NCBI GenBank assembly: GCA_035547835.1
Contig: DASZTW010000019.1
Location: 1 to 64,000, forward strand
Origin: Acidimicrobiales bacterium
GTDB taxonomy: Bacteria; Actinomycetota; Acidimicrobiia; Acidimicrobiales; Iamiaceae
Length of the DNA stretch: 64,000 bases
Direction: 5' to 3'
In this document: positions 31 through 33,310 of the stretch, in pieces
How positions within the stretch are numbered: position 1 is the first letter of the stretch
Layout of the letters: every line of letters starts with the position of its first letter
Notes under the pieces: generated by a model
Database searches by the model: none
Seen by the model: only the letters and a program-made list of their open reading frames with translations
Told to the model about the DNA's origin: nothing
Position numbers and translations under genes: made by a program

Positions 31-987
31 TCACTCGCCGAGGTTTCGCAGCGGGTGGTCGCGCGGTGGGGGAGGTGGAGGCTGGTCGCCTGGCGGTGGG
101 GGAGGTGGAGGCTGGTCGCCTGGCGGTGGGGGAGGTGGAGGCTGGTCGCCTGGCGGTGGGGGAGGTGGAGGCTGGTCGCCCGGGGGTTCGTGGCCCACCG
201 GATCTTCGGTGCCCACCAGATCTTCGGTGCCCACCAGATCCTCTGTGCCGAGGGCTGCGACGAGGACTTCGAGGGTGCGCGTGAGGCGCCGCAAGGTCTG
301 CGGGCTGGTCGCCCTCTCCAGGCGGCGTACCGAGTGCTCCAGCCGTTCGACCGTGGCGGCCAGGTCGGCCAGGCCGGAGCGCAGCTCGTGTTGGAGCGAA
401 CCCAGCTCGGAGGCCAGGGCATCGGCACGCGCGTTGTTCGCCGTCCCGGGCGTGGGCGTGCGGCCGTCGAGCTGGCGGCTGAGGCGTGACAGTTGCTCGC
501 CCACGTCGCTCATCGACTGGTCGGTCCGGTCCTGGTAACGGCGGACCGACGACGCGATGTCCTCGGCGAGTGACAAGTGGCGCCGCTGCGATGCGTGGAG
601 CTCCTGCAACATGCCGCTGAGCTCGAACTCGAGGTGGGTGACGGTGGCGCGCACCGGAGCGGGCAACGTGGGGTCGTGGCCTGAGGTGGTGGCCGGCAAG
701 GCCGGGAGCGCCCCCAGGTCGCCGGCCAGGCGGTGGGTCACGACATCGGCCACGTCGGCCGGGGTCGGGATCAGCGGGGCGATGATGTCGGCCACATCGT
801 GGGCCGAGGGCAGGTGCTCGGCCAGCAGGTCGACGATGCGCGTGGCCAGGTCATCGCCTGCGGCCGGCCCGCGTGGTGCCGGGCCGCTCGGCCCCGCGTC
901 GTTCCCGGCCCGCTCGTCCCCGGCCGGGTCGCCGGGCCCGGTGGGATCGCCCGCGCTCGGTGACCGTCCGCCGTCGGCCTCGGACAT
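31..987 (-). CDS. hypothetical coiled-coil protein with C-terminal proline decapeptide repeats
   Basis: 318 aa; I do not recognise a family. Residues 1-45 are a low-complexity Gly/Pro/Asp-rich start. Residues 46-110 are mixed, and residues 115-245 are rich in Leu/Arg/Glu heptad-like patterns (coiled-coil segments near 115-175 and 190-245). Residues about 248-263 are a short GTEDLV repeat. From about 268 to 309 a decapeptide of seven prolines plus Gly-Asp-Gln is repeated four times. No signal peptide or membrane segment is seen. ATG 987 is chosen because AGAGGGGA lies just upstream; an in-frame ATG at 1020 lacks such a site. It is divergent from SURF1. A scaffold or cell-envelope/polar role would be a guess. 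Confidence 0.7.
   Translation of the reverse strand: MSEADGGRSPSAGDPTGPGDPAGDERAGNDAGPSGPAPRGPAAGDDLATRIVDLLAEHLPSAHDVADIIAPLIPTPADVADVVTHRLAGDLGALPALPATTSGHDPTLPAPVRATVTHLEFELSGMLQELHASQRRHLSLAEDIASSVRRYQDRTDQSMSDVGEQLSRLSRQLDGRTPTPGTANNARADALASELGSLQHELRSGLADLAATVERLEHSVRRLERATSPQTLRRLTRTLEVLVAALGTEDLVGTEDLVGTEDPVGHEPPGDQPPPPPPPGDQPPPPPPPGDQPPPPPPPGDQPPPPPPRDHPLRNLGE
63..182. repeat. tandem repeat, 30-bp unit, four copies
   Basis: Four head-to-tail copies of a 30-bp unit (63-92, 93-122, 123-152, 153-182) are identical apart from one base near the end of the last copy. The unit is in frame in the minus-strand gene and encodes the Pro7-Gly-Asp-Gln decapeptide. Near-identity at DNA level, including third positions, shows recent amplification or ongoing homogenisation. 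Confidence 0.95.
201..252. repeat. tandem repeat, 18-bp unit, about three copies
   Basis: Two exact 18-bp units (201-218 and 219-236) are followed by a diverged third. They encode the repeated GTEDLV hexapeptide that joins the coiled-coil part of the protein to its proline tail. Confidence 0.9.
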
Positions 988-1124
988 CCCGGATCCCCTC
1001 TCGTCGCCGCCAGTCTGCATCCGTTGGGACTACCTCTGACAATCGTGGCCCACCAGCGGACGCAAGGGGCGTCGAGGCGCTGCCCGCTTGGTGTCCCGCC
1101 GGGTGGGCACCGTACCCTGAGGTG

Positions 1125-3304: not shown

Positions 3305-3361
3305 CCCGCTCCACCCGTTTCGAACCGACCACGTCCTTCCCGTTCCAAGGAGCCAAGCGAA

Positions 3362-4498
3362 ATGTCGTCCACCGAAGACCTCATCGGCCGAGCCGATATC
3401 AACGACCTCGAGGCGATCCTGTCGGTCACCAACACTGACGTCGATGCCACGCTCCACTCCGTGGCCGACAACGCCGACGCGATCTTCACGTGGGACTACG
3501 AGAAGGGTGCACGGCCGGCGCTGAACAAGCTCTACGAGAAGGCCAAGAAGAACCAGTGGAACGGCGAGACCGACCTGCCGTGGGAGACCGAGGTCGACCA
3601 GGAGGCCGTGGTGCTGGCCAACGCCGCCGCACAGGGCGCCATGACCGGGCTCGGGGGATCCACCCTCGACCTCGCCGGCACGCCGTTCGAGAAGTGGGAC
3701 GACAAGCAGTGGATCGAGCTCGGCATCCAGAGCCAGAACTGGACCCTCAGCCAGTTCATGCACGGTGAGCAGGGAGCCCTGGTCTGCACGGCCAAGATCG
3801 TCGAGACCGTGCCGTGGATCGACGCCAAGTACTACGCGGCCACGCAGGTGATGGACGAGGCCCGCCACGTCGAGGTCTTCGCCAAGTACCTCGACGAGAA
3901 GCTCTCGGGCCACTACCCCATCAACGCCCACCTCGGCCTGCTGCTCGACGACATCGTCAACGACAGCGAGTGGGACATGACGTACCTCGGCATGCAGATC
4001 ATGGTCGAGGGACTGGCGTTGGCTGCGTTCGGCTTCATCCACCAGCTCACGACCGAGCCGTTGCTGAAGCAGCTGCTGCGCTACGTCATGGCCGACGAAG
4101 CGCGCCACGTCGCGTTCGGCGTGCTCAGCCTCAAAGAGGTCTACGCCGAGATGAGCGCCGCCGACATCCGCCGCCGGCAGGAGTTCGCGTTCGAGGCCGC
4201 GGTCCGCATGCGCGATCGCTTCTTGCAGCAAGAGGTGTGGGACCGCATGGGCCTGCCCGTCAAGGAGACCATCAAGCTGGTCATGCAGGCGCCCGAGCGC
4301 CAGGTCTTCCAGCAGATGCTGTTCACCAAGATCGTGCCGAACTGCAAGAAGCTCGGCCTGCTCGACGCAGGCGACGGGTGGCTGCGCCAGAAGTTCGGCG
4401 AGCTCGGCGTCATCCAGTTCGAAGACTGGGAGGACACCGGCACCGAGTACGAGGCGCTGCAGGTCGACGAGATCGAGACGGGTGCGGCGTCGGCCTGA
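3362..4498 (+). CDS. ferritin-like di-iron-carboxylate protein
   Basis: 378 aa. Two copies of the di-iron signature DEARH are visible: MDEARHVEVF (about residue 165) and ADEARHVAFG (about residue 245). Upstream helices supply glutamates (HGEQGALV near 138; VEGLALAAFGF near 220). This EX~30DEXXH twice pattern is that of ferritin-like oxygenases, desaturases and R2-like proteins. The substrate is not evident; a fatty-acyl or small-molecule oxygenase fits the SDR that follows. AAGGAG about 11 nt before ATG supports the start. It follows two TetR genes and is separated from the SDR by 59 bp. The family assignment is firm, the reaction is not. Confidence 0.8.
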   Translation: MSSTEDLIGRADINDLEAILSVTNTDVDATLHSVADNADAIFTWDYEKGARPALNKLYEKAKKNQWNGETDLPWETEVDQEAVVLANAAAQGAMTGLGGSTLDLAGTPFEKWDDKQWIELGIQSQNWTLSQFMHGEQGALVCTAKIVETVPWIDAKYYAATQVMDEARHVEVFAKYLDEKLSGHYPINAHLGLLLDDIVNDSEWDMTYLGMQIMVEGLALAAFGFIHQLTTEPLLKQLLRYVMADEARHVAFGVLSLKEVYAEMSAADIRRRQEFAFEAAVRMRDRFLQQEVWDRMGLPVKETIKLVMQAPERQVFQQMLFTKIVPNCKKLGLLDAGDGWLRQKFGELGVIQFEDWEDTGTEYEALQVDEIETGAASA

Positions 4499-6377: not shown

Positions 6378-7688
6378 CTATGCCGCGACGCCGAACCAGC
6401 CCAACACGCTCCGCACGGCCACCACTGCCGCCAGCCCGGCGACGAGGACCGTGACGACGGTGGCCACGACGCGGATGGCCCGCCCGTTGGCGGCGTCGCC
6501 GAGGACGCTGGTGCGATTCGTGAGGATCAACAGGAACACCAAGATGATCGGCGCGATGAAGCCGTTGAGGATCTGGGTGTTGATCAGCAAGCGGATCAGG
6601 TTGCCGGGTGCCAGGGCCACGCCGGCGCCGATCACCACTTGGAGTGTGAAGAAGCCGACGAAGAACGGCGCTTCGCGAAAACTCCGCGACACCGAGCGTT
6701 CGACGCCGACCGCTTCGGACACGGCGTACGCGGTCGACAGCGGCACGACGGCGGCGGCCAGGGCCGACGCACCCAGCAAGCCGATGCCGAACAGCGTGGT
6801 CGCTGCTGACCCGGCCACCGGCTTCAGCGCGGCGGCCGCATCCTTGGCCGAAGCCAGCGGCCCGGTGCCCCCGATCGCCGCGGCGGTCGCCACGATGATC
6901 GCCATGGCCACGATCGAAGCGAAGATCGCACCCACCACGGAGTCGATCCGCTCCATCGGGTAGTTGTCGGGCCCGATCCCACGGTCGGCCACCGCAGCCG
7001 CTTGGTACAGCTGCATGTACGGCGTGATGCTGGTGCCGACGAGGGCGATCGCCAGCAACATGAAGTCCTTCGAACCGGTGAAGTGCGGCCAGGCGGCGTG
7101 GCGCGCCACCGCCCCCCATTGGGGGTGGGCCAGGAACGGCGCCACGAGGTACGCGACGAACGCCAGCGACAGCAACAAGAAGAGCCGTTCCGCGTAGCGG
7201 TACGAGCCGAACACGACCAGCGCCCAGATCACCACGGCTGCGACCGGCACGGTGAGGTAACGGCTCACGCCGAACAGCTCGAAAGCGGCACCGATGCCGG
7301 CGAACTCCGACACGACCAGGCCGATGTTGGCCACGACCAGCGCGACCACCGCGAACGTGGCTGCACGCAGGGGGAACTGCTCACGGATCAGCGAGACGAG
7401 CCCTTCGCCGGTGAACGCCCCGAGGCGTGCCGCCATCTCCTGCACGACGGCGAGGGCGATCGCCACGATGACCATGATGAACAACGTCTGGTAGCCGTAC
7501 TGCGCGCCGGCCGACGCGTACGTGGCGATGCCGCCGGCGTCGTTGCCGGCGTTGGCGGCCACCAGCCCCGGGCCGAGGATGGCGGCCACGCCGATGATCC
7601 TCCGCCACCGCCGGTGCCGTTCCTCGGCAGGTGAGAGCTCGACGGCGGCGGCCGGCTGGTCGCCGCTGTCGACCTTGGGCGGTGTCAT
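6378..7688 (-). CDS. NRAMP-type divalent metal transporter with altered metal-site residues
   Basis: 436 aa, about 11 transmembrane helices. The TM1 region reads LGPGLVAANAGNDAGGIAT (residues 38-56): where NRAMPs have DPGN this has DAGG, so Asp50 is kept but Asn is replaced by Gly. The TM6 region reads GTSITPY (218-224), where canonical proteins have an A-x-x-M-P-H motif, so the metal-selecting Met is Thr222 and His is Tyr224. Loss of the soft Met ligand is known from NRAMP-related Mg2+ transporters, so Mg2+ (or another hard cation) rather than Mn2+/Fe2+ is possible. ATG 7688 overlaps the stop of the MgtE-N/CBS gene (ATGA), implying translational coupling with that regulatory-looking protein. 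Confidence 0.85.
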   Translation of the reverse strand: MTPPKVDSGDQPAAAVELSPAEERHRRWRRIIGVAAILGPGLVAANAGNDAGGIATYASAGAQYGYQTLFIMVIVAIALAVVQEMAARLGAFTGEGLVSLIREQFPLRAATFAVVALVVANIGLVVSEFAGIGAAFELFGVSRYLTVPVAAVVIWALVVFGSYRYAERLFLLLSLAFVAYLVAPFLAHPQWGAVARHAAWPHFTGSKDFMLLAIALVGTSITPYMQLYQAAAVADRGIGPDNYPMERIDSVVGAIFASIVAMAIIVATAAAIGGTGPLASAKDAAAALKPVAGSAATTLFGIGLLGASALAAAVVPLSTAYAVSEAVGVERSVSRSFREAPFFVGFFTLQVVIGAGVALAPGNLIRLLINTQILNGFIAPIILVFLLILTNRTSVLGDAANGRAIRVVATVVTVLVAGLAAVVAVRSVLGWFGVAA

Positions 7689-9034
7689 CCGAGGATCCTC
7701 GGGAACCGCTGCCGCGCCTGTTCGGGCACCAGTGCGTCGATCACGTCGTCGGCGAGGATGCGTCCGATCGGCGTGTCGTCCTCGTCGACCACGATCACCG
7801 ACGCCGCGCGGCTGTCGGTCAGGCGGGCGACCACCTCGCTCAGCTCCGCATCGACCGTGACCGTGACGGGCCAAGGGGGCCGGACGAGGTCGTCGACCAG
7901 ATCGGAAGGCTCGGCGATCAGCAGCTCGTACAAGCTCAGGTCGTCGACCAGGCTGCCGTCGTTGTCGACGACCAGCACCGAGTCGATGTCGGCACGGTGG
8001 CCTTCTTCCTCGCGCAGACGCCGGCGCACGCTGGCCACGTCGGTGCCGGCCTCGATCAGCACGAGGTACGTGGTCATGAGGCCGCCCGCCGTCTGCTCCG
8101 GGAACGTCAACAAGGCAGCGAGCTCGCCCGCGACCTCACTGTCCATGGCGTCGAGGATCTCGTCGCGCTCGTCGGGCTCCAAGTCGCGCAAGGCGTCGAC
8201 CGCTTCGTCAGGCTCCATCTCGGCGAGCAGGCCGGCGGCCTGGTCGACGGGCGCGTCGCGCAGCAGCTGCTCCAGGCGCTCTGGCTCCATCTCCTCGAGG
8301 GCGTCCGCGGCGTCACGCTTGTCGAGCGCGTTCAACAGCTCTTGGCGCTCGTCGCGTCCGAGCTCTTCGAGCAGGTCGGCCATCTCGGCGGGCCGCAGGC
8401 GTCGCAGCGCCTGGTTGGATCGCGAGAGACGGACTTCGCCAGGTCGGGACCCGAACGGCTGGATCGAGCCCCAGTCGAGCACCCGATCGGGTGTGGGCCG
8501 GGTGCGGAACCGGGCAGGGCCGAGCCGGCGCATCAGGCTCTGCATCCCGACGTCGACCCCCACGAGGCGCCAGGCCAGACCGACGCGGGCCAGGTAGAGA
8601 TCGGAGGCCCGCACCACCCGTACACCGTCGACGTCGACGAGCTGGCGATCGAGCACGTCGCCGGCGAGCACCACTTCGCCCGGTCGGCGCTCGAAGTCGC
8701 GCAGGTCGAGCCGCGCCGACGCGAGCTGCACGCCGGTGTGCGTCATCTCGCGCACCTGGTTGATGCTGAGGAACGACAACCTGCGACCGACCCGCACGAC
8801 CAGCCCCGTGACGGGTGGATACGGCCCGCCGTCCCAGCGCGCCACGACGTCTTTGATGCGCCCGACCTCGGCCCCTTGCTGGTTGGTGACGGTGCGGCCG
8901 ATCAGGCCGGCGAGCGAGATGAGCGCGTCGGCGACCGATCGGTGGGTGAGCAGGCGCGCGTGCCGTTGGTCCGCCCGCGAGCGCATCGACGCTGGTCGCA
9001 GCGTCGCGGCGGGAAACGAGGGGCGGCGGGCCAT
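7685..9034 (-). CDS. MgtE N-terminal/CBS domain protein without a membrane domain
   Basis: 449 aa. Residues about 35-200 hold PRC-barrel-like beta segments (LIGRTVTNQQGAEVGRIKDV). Residues 205-315 are an MgtE intracellular superhelical domain with repeated helices such as LRRLRPAEMADLLEELG and LLAEMEPDEAVDAL. Residues 320-445 are a CBS pair ending PIGRILADDVIDAL. The membrane channel of MgtE is absent. In MgtE these domains sense Mg2+ and gate the pore; here they probably control the adjoining NRAMP-type transporter, whose start codon overlaps this stop (ATGA). A GGAGGT ribosome site 6 nt upstream fixes ATG 9034. Confidence 0.85.
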   Translation of the reverse strand: MARRPSFPAATLRPASMRSRADQRHARLLTHRSVADALISLAGLIGRTVTNQQGAEVGRIKDVVARWDGGPYPPVTGLVVRVGRRLSFLSINQVREMTHTGVQLASARLDLRDFERRPGEVVLAGDVLDRQLVDVDGVRVVRASDLYLARVGLAWRLVGVDVGMQSLMRRLGPARFRTRPTPDRVLDWGSIQPFGSRPGEVRLSRSNQALRRLRPAEMADLLEELGRDERQELLNALDKRDAADALEEMEPERLEQLLRDAPVDQAAGLLAEMEPDEAVDALRDLEPDERDEILDAMDSEVAGELAALLTFPEQTAGGLMTTYLVLIEAGTDVASVRRRLREEEGHRADIDSVLVVDNDGSLVDDLSLYELLIAEPSDLVDDLVRPPWPVTVTVDAELSEVVARLTDSRAASVIVVDEDDTPIGRILADDVIDALVPEQARQRFPRILG

Positions 9035-32117: not shown

Positions 32118-33310
32118 CAGAGCGCCTCGACGCCGAGCAGGTCGAGGGTGTTGGTCCGCATGATCTTGCGGGTCTCGTCCGCATCGAACGCGTGCAGTTC
32201 CTTGGTGAACTGCAAGGGCTCGGCCAATCCCTCGCCGTGGGGCCAGTCGCTGCCGAACAGCACCCGCTCGGTACCGATGAGGTCGGCGAGCGTCCGGATG
32301 TCCTCTTCGTAGTACGGCGTGACCCACACGTGCTCCCGGATCACGTCGAGCGGGTCGTGCGGGAACACCCACGGGGTCTGGTTGGCCTGCTTCTCGAGTC
32401 GCTTGGCGAGCAGTGCGACCCAGTCGGAGCCGTTCTCGATGCTGGCCACCCGCAGCGCAGGGTGCCGTTCGAACACGCCGTCGACGATCAGCGAGGCCAT
32501 CGTGTCGTGGATGGCGCGGTCCGACACGAGGATCCGGCTCAAGATGTTCATCTTCCCGAAGGCCTCGAAGGAAGCCGACCCGCCCCACATGGTGGTGAAC
32601 GCGTTGTAGCCGCTGTCGCCCAAGTGGAAGGCAGCCGGGATCGACGCCTCGGCCAGGCGCGCCCACACCGGGTCGTGGCGCTTGTGGCCGAGCGAGTACG
32701 ACTTGCCGTGCTCGCCGGGCACCGGCGCGGGACGGATGTGCACGAGGCGGGCTCCCGCGGCGAGCACCCGGTCGATCTCGGCCCCGGCCGCGGCCGGGTC
32801 GGCCAGTGAGATCATCGGCGCGGCGACCAGTCGGTGGTCGGCGCCGTAGCCCCAGTCCTCCTCGAGCCACCGGTTGAACGCCGTGAGGCTCGCCATGGTG
32901 GCGCCGACGTCGTCCTTCAGCGCTTCCTCCACGCCGCACCCGAAGGTTGGGAACAGCAGCACCGCGTCGAGGCCCTGCTCGTCGAGCACCCGGAGGCGGG
33001 CGTCGCGGTCTTGGTACTCGGGCCGACCGTCGAGCGGCTCGACTTTCATGAGGGTGCGGGGGTCGACGCCTTCGGGGATCTGGCCTCGGAACAGCGGATC
33101 GATGCAGCCCGGTACGATGATCGGGTCGAACGTGGGGTTGGGGATGAAGCGGTTGACCCGGCCGCCCATCAGCACTTGCTGATGGCCCCGATCGTCGGTC
33201 AGCACCTGCACGCCGCGGTGGGCAATGGCCCGGTCGAGGTGGCGGGTGAACGCGTCGAGCGGCTCGTAGTAGTGGTTGTCCGCGTCGATCGGCGCGAAGT
33301 CGAGGTCCAT
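32117..33310 (-). CDS. amidohydrolase-2 family metal-dependent hydrolase/decarboxylase
   Basis: 397 aa TIM barrel of the amidohydrolase-2 (ACMSD/gamma-resorcylate decarboxylase) group. The metal motif at the N-terminus is IDADNHYYEPLDAF (the DxDxH/E form), followed by LFPTFGCGVEE near 125, AAFHLGDSGYNAF near 228 and the metal Asp in LFGSDWPHGEGL near 357. It may hydrolyse a C-C or C-O bond or decarboxylate an intermediate. ATG 33310 is used; GTG 33343, just after a TACGCT -10 box on the minus strand, is a good leaderless alternative. It is divergent from a CoA ligase across site 4. Confidence 0.83.
   Translation of the reverse strand: MDLDFAPIDADNHYYEPLDAFTRHLDRAIAHRGVQVLTDDRGHQQVLMGGRVNRFIPNPTFDPIIVPGCIDPLFRGQIPEGVDPRTLMKVEPLDGRPEYQDRDARLRVLDEQGLDAVLLFPTFGCGVEEALKDDVGATMASLTAFNRWLEEDWGYGADHRLVAAPMISLADPAAAGAEIDRVLAAGARLVHIRPAPVPGEHGKSYSLGHKRHDPVWARLAEASIPAAFHLGDSGYNAFTTMWGGSASFEAFGKMNILSRILVSDRAIHDTMASLIVDGVFERHPALRVASIENGSDWVALLAKRLEKQANQTPWVFPHDPLDVIREHVWVTPYYEEDIRTLADLIGTERVLFGSDWPHGEGLAEPLQFTKELHAFDADETRKIMRTNTLDLLGVEAL

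Follow-up and report, generated by a model that had tools for sequence, protein, structure and literature searches.

A candidate two-gene Mg2+ import unit in an Acidimicrobiales genome: an NRMT-type transporter gene overlapping a gene for a pore-less MgtE-like sensor

Results

The sensor and transporter genes overlap

The stretch of DNA analyzed here, called the window, comprises the 64,000 nucleotides at positions 1 to 64,000 of contig DASZTW010000019.1 from an Acidimicrobiales bacterium (assembly GCA_035547835.1). Its minus strand encodes an NRAMP-related transporter of the NRMT clade, and the gene immediately upstream encodes a protein resembling the cytosolic sensor of the Mg2+ channel MgtE. 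Residues of this sensor are aligned below with those of T. thermophilus MgtE (TtMgtE), the reference for the Mg2+ sites, in which D91 and D247 were mutated together as site Mg4 (PMC5882242). The features of the locus are:

6378..7688, minus strand, transporter gene, NRAMP-related, NRMT clade, 436 amino acids, with D50-A-G-G53, T219-x-x-T222, Q372 and E128
7685..9034, minus strand, sensor gene, MgtE-like cytosolic sensor protein of 449 amino acids without a pore
7685..7688, minus strand, ATGA overlap of the sensor stop codon and the transporter start codon
8456..8914, minus strand, N-terminal β-rich region of the sensor (residues ~41-193), PRC-barrel-like in relatives, with a sub-threshold Pfam score in the window protein
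8096..8398, minus strand, MgtE_N domain of the sensor (residues 213-313), in which D244, D276 and D280 align with TtMgtE E59, D91 and D95 (sites Mg7, Mg4 and Mg6)
7715..8095, minus strand, CBS pair of the sensor (residues 314-440), in which D430 and D433 align with TtMgtE D247 and D250

The transporter frame opens with the ATG at 7688 and closes with a stop codon at 6380-6378. Its ATG (7688-7686) enters the sensor TGA (7687-7685), and this 4-nucleotide overlap suggests that translation of the two genes is likely coupled.

The transporter belongs to the NRMT clade

The Pfam Nramp family matches residues 54-402 of the transporter (E = 1.8e-84). Transmembrane helix (TM) 1 carries NDAGG (D50, G53) and TM6 carries GTSITPY (T219, T222), giving an NRAMP-fold transporter with DAGG/TPY in place of DPGN/MPH. 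The earlier note on this DNA described an NRAMP transporter without the Met and Asn metal ligands, and this description is correct: Thr222 replaces the Met and Gly53 the Asn. The closest PDB match is EleNRMT (7qia, E = 2.3e-94), followed by MntH (E = 8.2e-23). EleNRMT, whose structure has been solved, transports Mg2+ and also Mn2+, and passages of the paper describing it give the NRMT ion-site signature as DxxG-TxxA/T and also note a Gln and a Glu position (Ramanadane et al. 2022, PMC8806188). The window transporter has D50xxG53 and T219xxT222, with Q372 and E128 at the Gln and Glu positions. Both proton-pathway histidines of TM6b are gone, and the aligned positions, read by eye, hold Tyr224 and Gln229.

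A quick maximum-likelihood tree, midpoint-rooted, was computed from 130 rows: the window transporter, EleNRMT, DraNramp and 127 proteins from one sample drawn evenly over phyla. Four rows shorter than 300 residues, namely L074, L081 and the two pieces of L097, were omitted. The window protein and EleNRMT share one clade of 78 rows (SH-aLRT support 98), and DraNramp and the DPGN/MPH proteins fall outside it. Identity of the window transporter to the near relatives of EleNRMT is 41% (L023) and 43% (L029). By signature and clade the window transporter is classified as an NRMT grouped with EleNRMT, in agreement with the comparison to NRAMP-related Mg2+ transporters made in the earlier note, and identification as a classical Mn/Fe NRAMP was rejected on the same grounds. 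Three DPAG/APW transporters (L036, L037 and L051) lie inside the NRMT clade and have no counted MgtE_N neighbor, although L036 has a short 64-bit match upstream; they possibly have another substrate.

The upstream protein resembles an MgtE sensor without its pore

Pfam assigns MgtE_N (residues 213-313, E = 6e-23) and CBS in two stretches (E = 5.6e-9) to the sensor protein, and a Kyte-Doolittle count found zero hydrophobic or membrane segments in it. This confirms the earlier note's description of an overlapping gene with MgtE N and CBS domains and no pore. Identification as an MgtE channel was rejected; MgtE_N and the CBS pair are present, but the membrane pore (PF01769) is missing. An AlphaFold2 model built from 45 sequences (mean pLDDT 85.3, pTM 0.66) matches the MgtE cytosolic structures 2oux, 5x9g, 2yvy, 8gpv and 8gps with TM-scores of 0.82-0.88 normalized to target length and 0.47-0.49 normalized to query length.

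About 200 extra N-terminal residues precede MgtE_N. The PRC barrel family (PF05239) scored over its cut-off in 6 of 10 partner relatives tested; among the four without such a score, L018 and L025 are truncated where the locus ends. On the window sensor the PF05239 match reached E = 0.07 and 13.6 bits against a cut-off of 21.2. Pfam matches in the relatives and the strand pattern of the predicted model suggest that residues 41-193 may form two barrels. There was no PRC protein among the 50 PDB matches listed by a fold search with the model, all of which are MgtE or other CBS-domain proteins by description.

The gene pair is conserved across bacteria

A match at E ≤ 1e-20 was present in 114 of the 296 genomes of the phylum sample. 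Of 140 places listed in genomes other than the window's own, 129 were fetched. The 11 places left out were nine low-scoring ones, G052:C150 and the fragment G283:C95. A neighbor was counted above 150 bits, which leaves weaker matches at L036 (64), L084 (83-84), L097 (63) and L114 (29) uncounted; L016 was added manually, its neighbor being a 111-bit piece at the end of a contig. Including the window, 56 transporter open reading frames (ORFs) have an MgtE_N-type ORF within the fetched stretch, 52 of them upstream on the same strand, 3 downstream and 1 on the opposite strand. On the tree the neighbor occurs in 54 of the 78 rows of the NRMT clade and in 0 of the 52 rows outside, where the 24 neighborless clade rows include EleNRMT and the 52 outside rows include DraNramp, the loci of both not having been looked at. 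None of the 17 DPGN/MPH loci has an MgtE_N neighbor. Chance adjacency was rejected on the basis of this distribution. Two loci whose transporters are 96% (L024) and 95% (L029) identical to EleNRMT both have an MgtE-like neighbor.

The 80 named relatives rank highest among 542 confirmed stretches, so that their neighbor share is not that of a random sample. An MgtE_N-type ORF lies upstream on the same strand in 63 of them, within about 240 bp in 57 and 0.9-4 kb away in 6 (L163, L167, L175, L187, L189 and L201). Four more have a match in another position and one lies at a contig edge; the partners at L144 and L175 are weak or partial. The titles cover Actinobacteria, Clostridia, Acidobacteria, Chloroflexi, Nitrospirae, Deltaproteobacteria, Armatimonadetes, Omnitrophota, Spirochaetes and others. 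The earlier note had named conserved adjacency as a check on its proposal, and such adjacency was seen in both sets of loci.

Long partners retain gate residues and have lost the pore residue Asp432

In 25 long partners (phylum-sample families f26, f35, f46, f53, f54 and f66, inferred to be Coriobacteriia) a membrane part follows the CBS pair; several are cut at the N-terminal end by the end of the locus. The long partner at L018 aligns to nearly the whole of MgtE, residues 60-482 matching chain residues 45-472 (E = 1.6e-52). The pore residue Asp432 is replaced in all 25 (Met in 14, Val in 7, Leu in 2, Gly in 1 and Thr in 1), and none of them has the GNTGNQ motif in its original form. D91, D247, E258 and D259 are kept in 25 of 25. 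As a control, the ordinary MgtE of Clostridium pascui (L285) keeps Asp432. Partners of the EleNRMT relatives (L015, L023, L024, L026, L028, L029 and L065) have a single hydrophobic segment after the CBS pair. Long MgtE_N-CBS proteins that lack Asp432 and keep the four acids also occur in Thermogemmatispora (L287) and, unlinked to the neighborless NRMT, in genomes G015 and G176 (L288 and L289); all three are encoded away from the NRMT gene, and PRC matched in L287 and L288. The dead-pore long partners are likely an evolutionary intermediate, and loss of the pore with retention of gate residues suggests a re-used regulator, which would be expected to look this way.

The two Mg4 acids are mostly kept or lost together

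The window sensor keeps an acid at the positions of TtMgtE E59 (D244), D91 (D276), D95 (D280), D247 (D430) and D250 (D433). Over 119 partners the acid is kept at E59 in 93%, D91 in 87%, D95 in 93%, D247 in 91%, D250 in 78% and D226 in 21%. D91 and D247 share the same fate in 115 of the 119 partners: 104 keep the pair and 11 lack it entirely, while the remaining 4 (L079, L080, L082 and L165) have lost D91 alone. Their correlation of 0.84, uncorrected for phylogeny, is the highest of the 595 pairs among 35 conserved columns, all of which have one phylogeny in common; the next is 0.83 (182-231). Double loss of Mg4 is found under Acidobacteria-type titles (L167, L172, L187, L189, L197 and L201, with L163 titled Rhodanobacteraceae) and under Smithella/Syntrophaceae-type titles (L190, L193 and L204, with L196 titled delta proteobacterium). 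Most double-loss partners adjoin DAGG, DSGG or DTGG transporters, not DPNG.

Locus L258, which we take to be the A. capsulatum chromosome locus, has a transporter with DPNG in TM1 and a partner with Ser/His at D91/D247. His stands at D247 in all six DPNG loci whose partner could be read (L197, L258, L259, L261, L262 and L263), and L261 has Glu at 91. Mg4 loss correlates here with a single transporter tested for Mn2+, which does not amount to a rule.

An M-box precedes the pair in Bacillota

Twelve loci were scanned for the M-box (RF00380), which was found in 8, comprising all eight with Bacillota titles and none of the other four. The order M-box, sensor gene, transporter recurs in L149, L150, L153, L158, L168, L174 and L199, whose titles name Bacillota genera or Firmicutes, and both Mg4 acids are kept in all 7 of these loci with an upstream partner. 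In L155 (Clostridium pascui) the M-box lies ahead of a transporter without the neighbor. Two fluoride riboswitches (2567-2625 and 3344-3403) occur in L155 a few kb upstream of this M-box-controlled NRMT.

The window genome (96.7% complete) has one Nramp place, with P0002 as the query, and one MgtE_N place; no MgtE pore domain (PF01769) was found in it at E ≤ 0.001.

Other MgtE_N-CBS genes and window features

Four loci without an NRMT (L279, L280, L282 and L283) carry an MgtE_N-CBS gene followed by a gene for a DUF1003 membrane protein. They represent 4 of 5 Actinomycetota downstream frames, the fifth (L278) giving no match. The DUF1003 frames lie at 2538-3251 in L279, 4459-5070 in L280, 4581-5348 in L282 and 3149-3682 in L283 (E = 2e-34 to 4e-37), with Streptomyces and Mycobacterium among the genomes. 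This arrangement suggests that the MgtE_N-CBS sensor may have, in the DUF1003 protein, another type of membrane partner. It also favors an alternative in which the partner does not gate this transporter and instead serves various membrane proteins as an adaptor or chaperone responsive to Mg2+, the PRC-like region perhaps making the contact. That explanation is considered improbable. NRMT-clade-confined adjacency, the dead-pore partners and the Mg4 covariation fit a metal-gated role better, and in C. pascui (L284) a stand-alone MgtE_N-CBS gene is followed by a cell-wall hydrolase gene, not DUF1003.

Elsewhere in the window, an ORF at 31-1020 (minus strand) ends in the proline-rich repeat GDQPPPPPPP, and a match to Ms_AS-1, a Mycobacterium small RNA family, lies at 33132-33230 (plus strand) with 38.2 bits against the Rfam cut-off of 37.

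Discussion

The locus probably encodes a two-gene Mg2+ import unit consisting of an NRMT importer and a Mg2+ brake that acts in trans, with the substrate, the contact between the proteins and the direction of regulation inferred. The NRMT would move Mg2+, and also Mn2+ like EleNRMT, largely hydrated and without proton coupling. The upstream protein would be the cytosolic sensor of an MgtE channel deprived of its pore. At high cytosolic Mg2+, ions bound between the N and CBS domains would lock the sensor into a compact form, which would dock onto the transporter from the cytosol and close it as the same domains shut the MgtE pore. The two-part Mg2+ system suggested in the earlier note is supported in part by the transporter signature, the EleNRMT clade, the conserved neighbor, the Bacillota M-box and the retained acids; its regulation and substrate are predicted, and the idea was in print in 2014. 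A further-reaching version, in which what is left of a dismantled MgtE (the pore decayed, the gate re-used) gates an NRAMP-fold transporter in trans and Mg4 changes together with the ion site at a shift from Mg2+ to Mn2+, is offered tentatively and is possible rather than probable. Its odds are lowered because Mg4 is also lost beside DAGG/DSGG transporters.

A number of observations weigh against the import unit. In the phylum sample, 15 DAGG/APW loci lack a neighbor within the fetched stretch, and 12 of the 80 named loci lack any MgtE_N-type neighbor. The earlier note had also called for a search for fusions, and none turned up: no fused protein and no stop-to-stop ORF with both domains was found in 130 sources and the 80 named loci. 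Long frames resembling fusions (for example 838 amino acids in L032) were rejected, since they match the transporter only; the remainder of such frames is attributed to an additional open frame, given the GC-rich DNA. The lack of fusions and the 15 neighborless loci would also suit two merely co-transcribed metal genes whose products have no contact. This explanation is very improbable. Adjacency recurs across many phyla, 80 of 110 pairs have a possible transporter start between -60 and +30 nucleotides from the partner stop, and the best-known role of the domain is to gate a Mg2+ channel. All 15 genomes with a neighborless DAGG/APW transporter have an MgtE_N match elsewhere, a point in favor of the adaptor alternative, and some of these matches may be ordinary MgtE.

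Other contrary points concern the sensor itself. D226, half of site Mg5, is R409 in the window, and the ATP-site residues of MgtE (Y170, R187 and F227; PMC5529423) are S352, Y369 and A410. The window partner ends at the MgtE plug helix, with Arg/Gln opposite E258/D259 in a gap-free extension of the alignment read by eye. E59 is Gly in 6 of 119 partners, and 7 of the 25 long partners have no acid at D95 (site Mg6). No M-box was found in the window at the Rfam gathering score. Among 13 further loci, all Actinomycetota, only L079 carries one, ahead of a transporter with a downstream partner, and this partner has Gly at 91. The window genome also has one CorA, so the two-gene unit need not be its sole Mg2+ route.

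The remaining contrary evidence is physiological and comes from sections of Shin et al. 2014 (PMC4072509). The A. capsulatum NrmT, whose gene lies beside an MgtE-like gene, fully rescued a Mn2+ defect, rescued a Mg2+ defect only at low millimolar Mg2+, and is reported as a likely Mn2+ transporter. Co-expression of the MgtE-like gene gave no further Mg2+ rescue, and the C. acetobutylicum NrmTs, for which Mg2+ transport is reported, work without the MgtE-like gene. The failed improvement of Mg2+ rescue does not oppose a brake, because a brake would not improve rescue, and it gives no support either. These results raise the alternative that the window transporter, although of the NRMT clade, imports chiefly Mn2+, as they suggest for its A. 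capsulatum counterpart, with a partner that senses Mn2+ or divalent metal generally. Mn2+ transport by EleNRMT (PMC8806188), the lack of an M-box in the window and the loss of Mg4 acids beside DAGG/DSGG transporters (Acidobacteriaceae and Smithella-type) are on its side, and the last of these means that a DAGG site alone does not tell the substrate. A primary Mn2+ role is nevertheless judged unlikely. The A. capsulatum-type locus L258 combines DPNG with a Ser/His partner, and His replaces D247 in every readable DPNG locus, whereas the window has DAGG and TPY, like the M-box-controlled Clostridium carboxidivorans pair L174, and keeps both Mg4 acids.

The pairing and the feedback idea are a rediscovery. 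Sections of Shin et al. 2014 (PMC4072509) state that most nrmT genes adjoin a gene homologous to the MgtE N-terminal cytosolic domain and that an M-box controls many of them; as speculative roles of the MgtE-like gene they name feedback regulation from the cytoplasm or action as a chaperone. The pairing is widespread in bacteria. In the open-licence literature, this is the sole paper from 2014 on joining NRMT, MgtE and operon, and that literature has no paper joining MgtE with a PRC barrel or MgtE with an N-terminal domain and DUF1003; among the further papers listed, no title concerns the partner. Passages of the EleNRMT structure paper (PMC8806188) do not mention an MgtE-like neighbor; they do not contain the term CBS and name MgtE as a channel only. 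New beyond the sections of Shin et al. are the dead-pore partners, the Mg4 covariation and the Mg4 contrast of the A. capsulatum-type locus. Residues D276 and D430, the natural contrast of the A. capsulatum-type partner and the dead-pore MgtE intermediate make the 2014 speculation directly testable, and they suggest purifying and assaying NRMTs together with their partner. If the import unit is real, a channel gate would have been re-used on an unrelated transporter.

Comparison with known systems

The window sensor keeps the Mg4 acids, whereas the partner at L258, presumably that of A. capsulatum, is without them. Classical MntH/NRAMP proteins (DraNramp) share the fold family and the TM1 Asp with the window transporter, which lacks their Asn, Met and TM6b His. 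The MgtE channel (2yvx, 2zy9; passages of PMC5882242 and PMC5529423) shares the N domain, the CBS pair and most of the interdomain Mg2+-site acids with the sensor; the sensor differs in lacking the pore, the plug-helix acids E258/D259 (by eye) and the ATP-site residues, and in its extra N-terminal PRC-like region. The mgtE-fragment/nrmT operons of Shin et al. 2014 (Ca_c0685 and ACP2976/2977, in sections of that paper) have adjacency, an MgtE-like cytosolic domain and a proposed feedback role in common with the window. The window has no M-box, which many but not all of those operons have, and its sensor gene is in one piece where that of C. acetobutylicum is split. EleNRMT of Eggerthella lenta (7qia; passages of PMC8806188) resembles the window transporter in its clade, the DxxG-TxxA/T signature, the Gln and Glu positions and the replacement of both TM6b histidines, and the window protein differs from it in having Thr222 where EleNRMT has Ala and Tyr where it has Trp.

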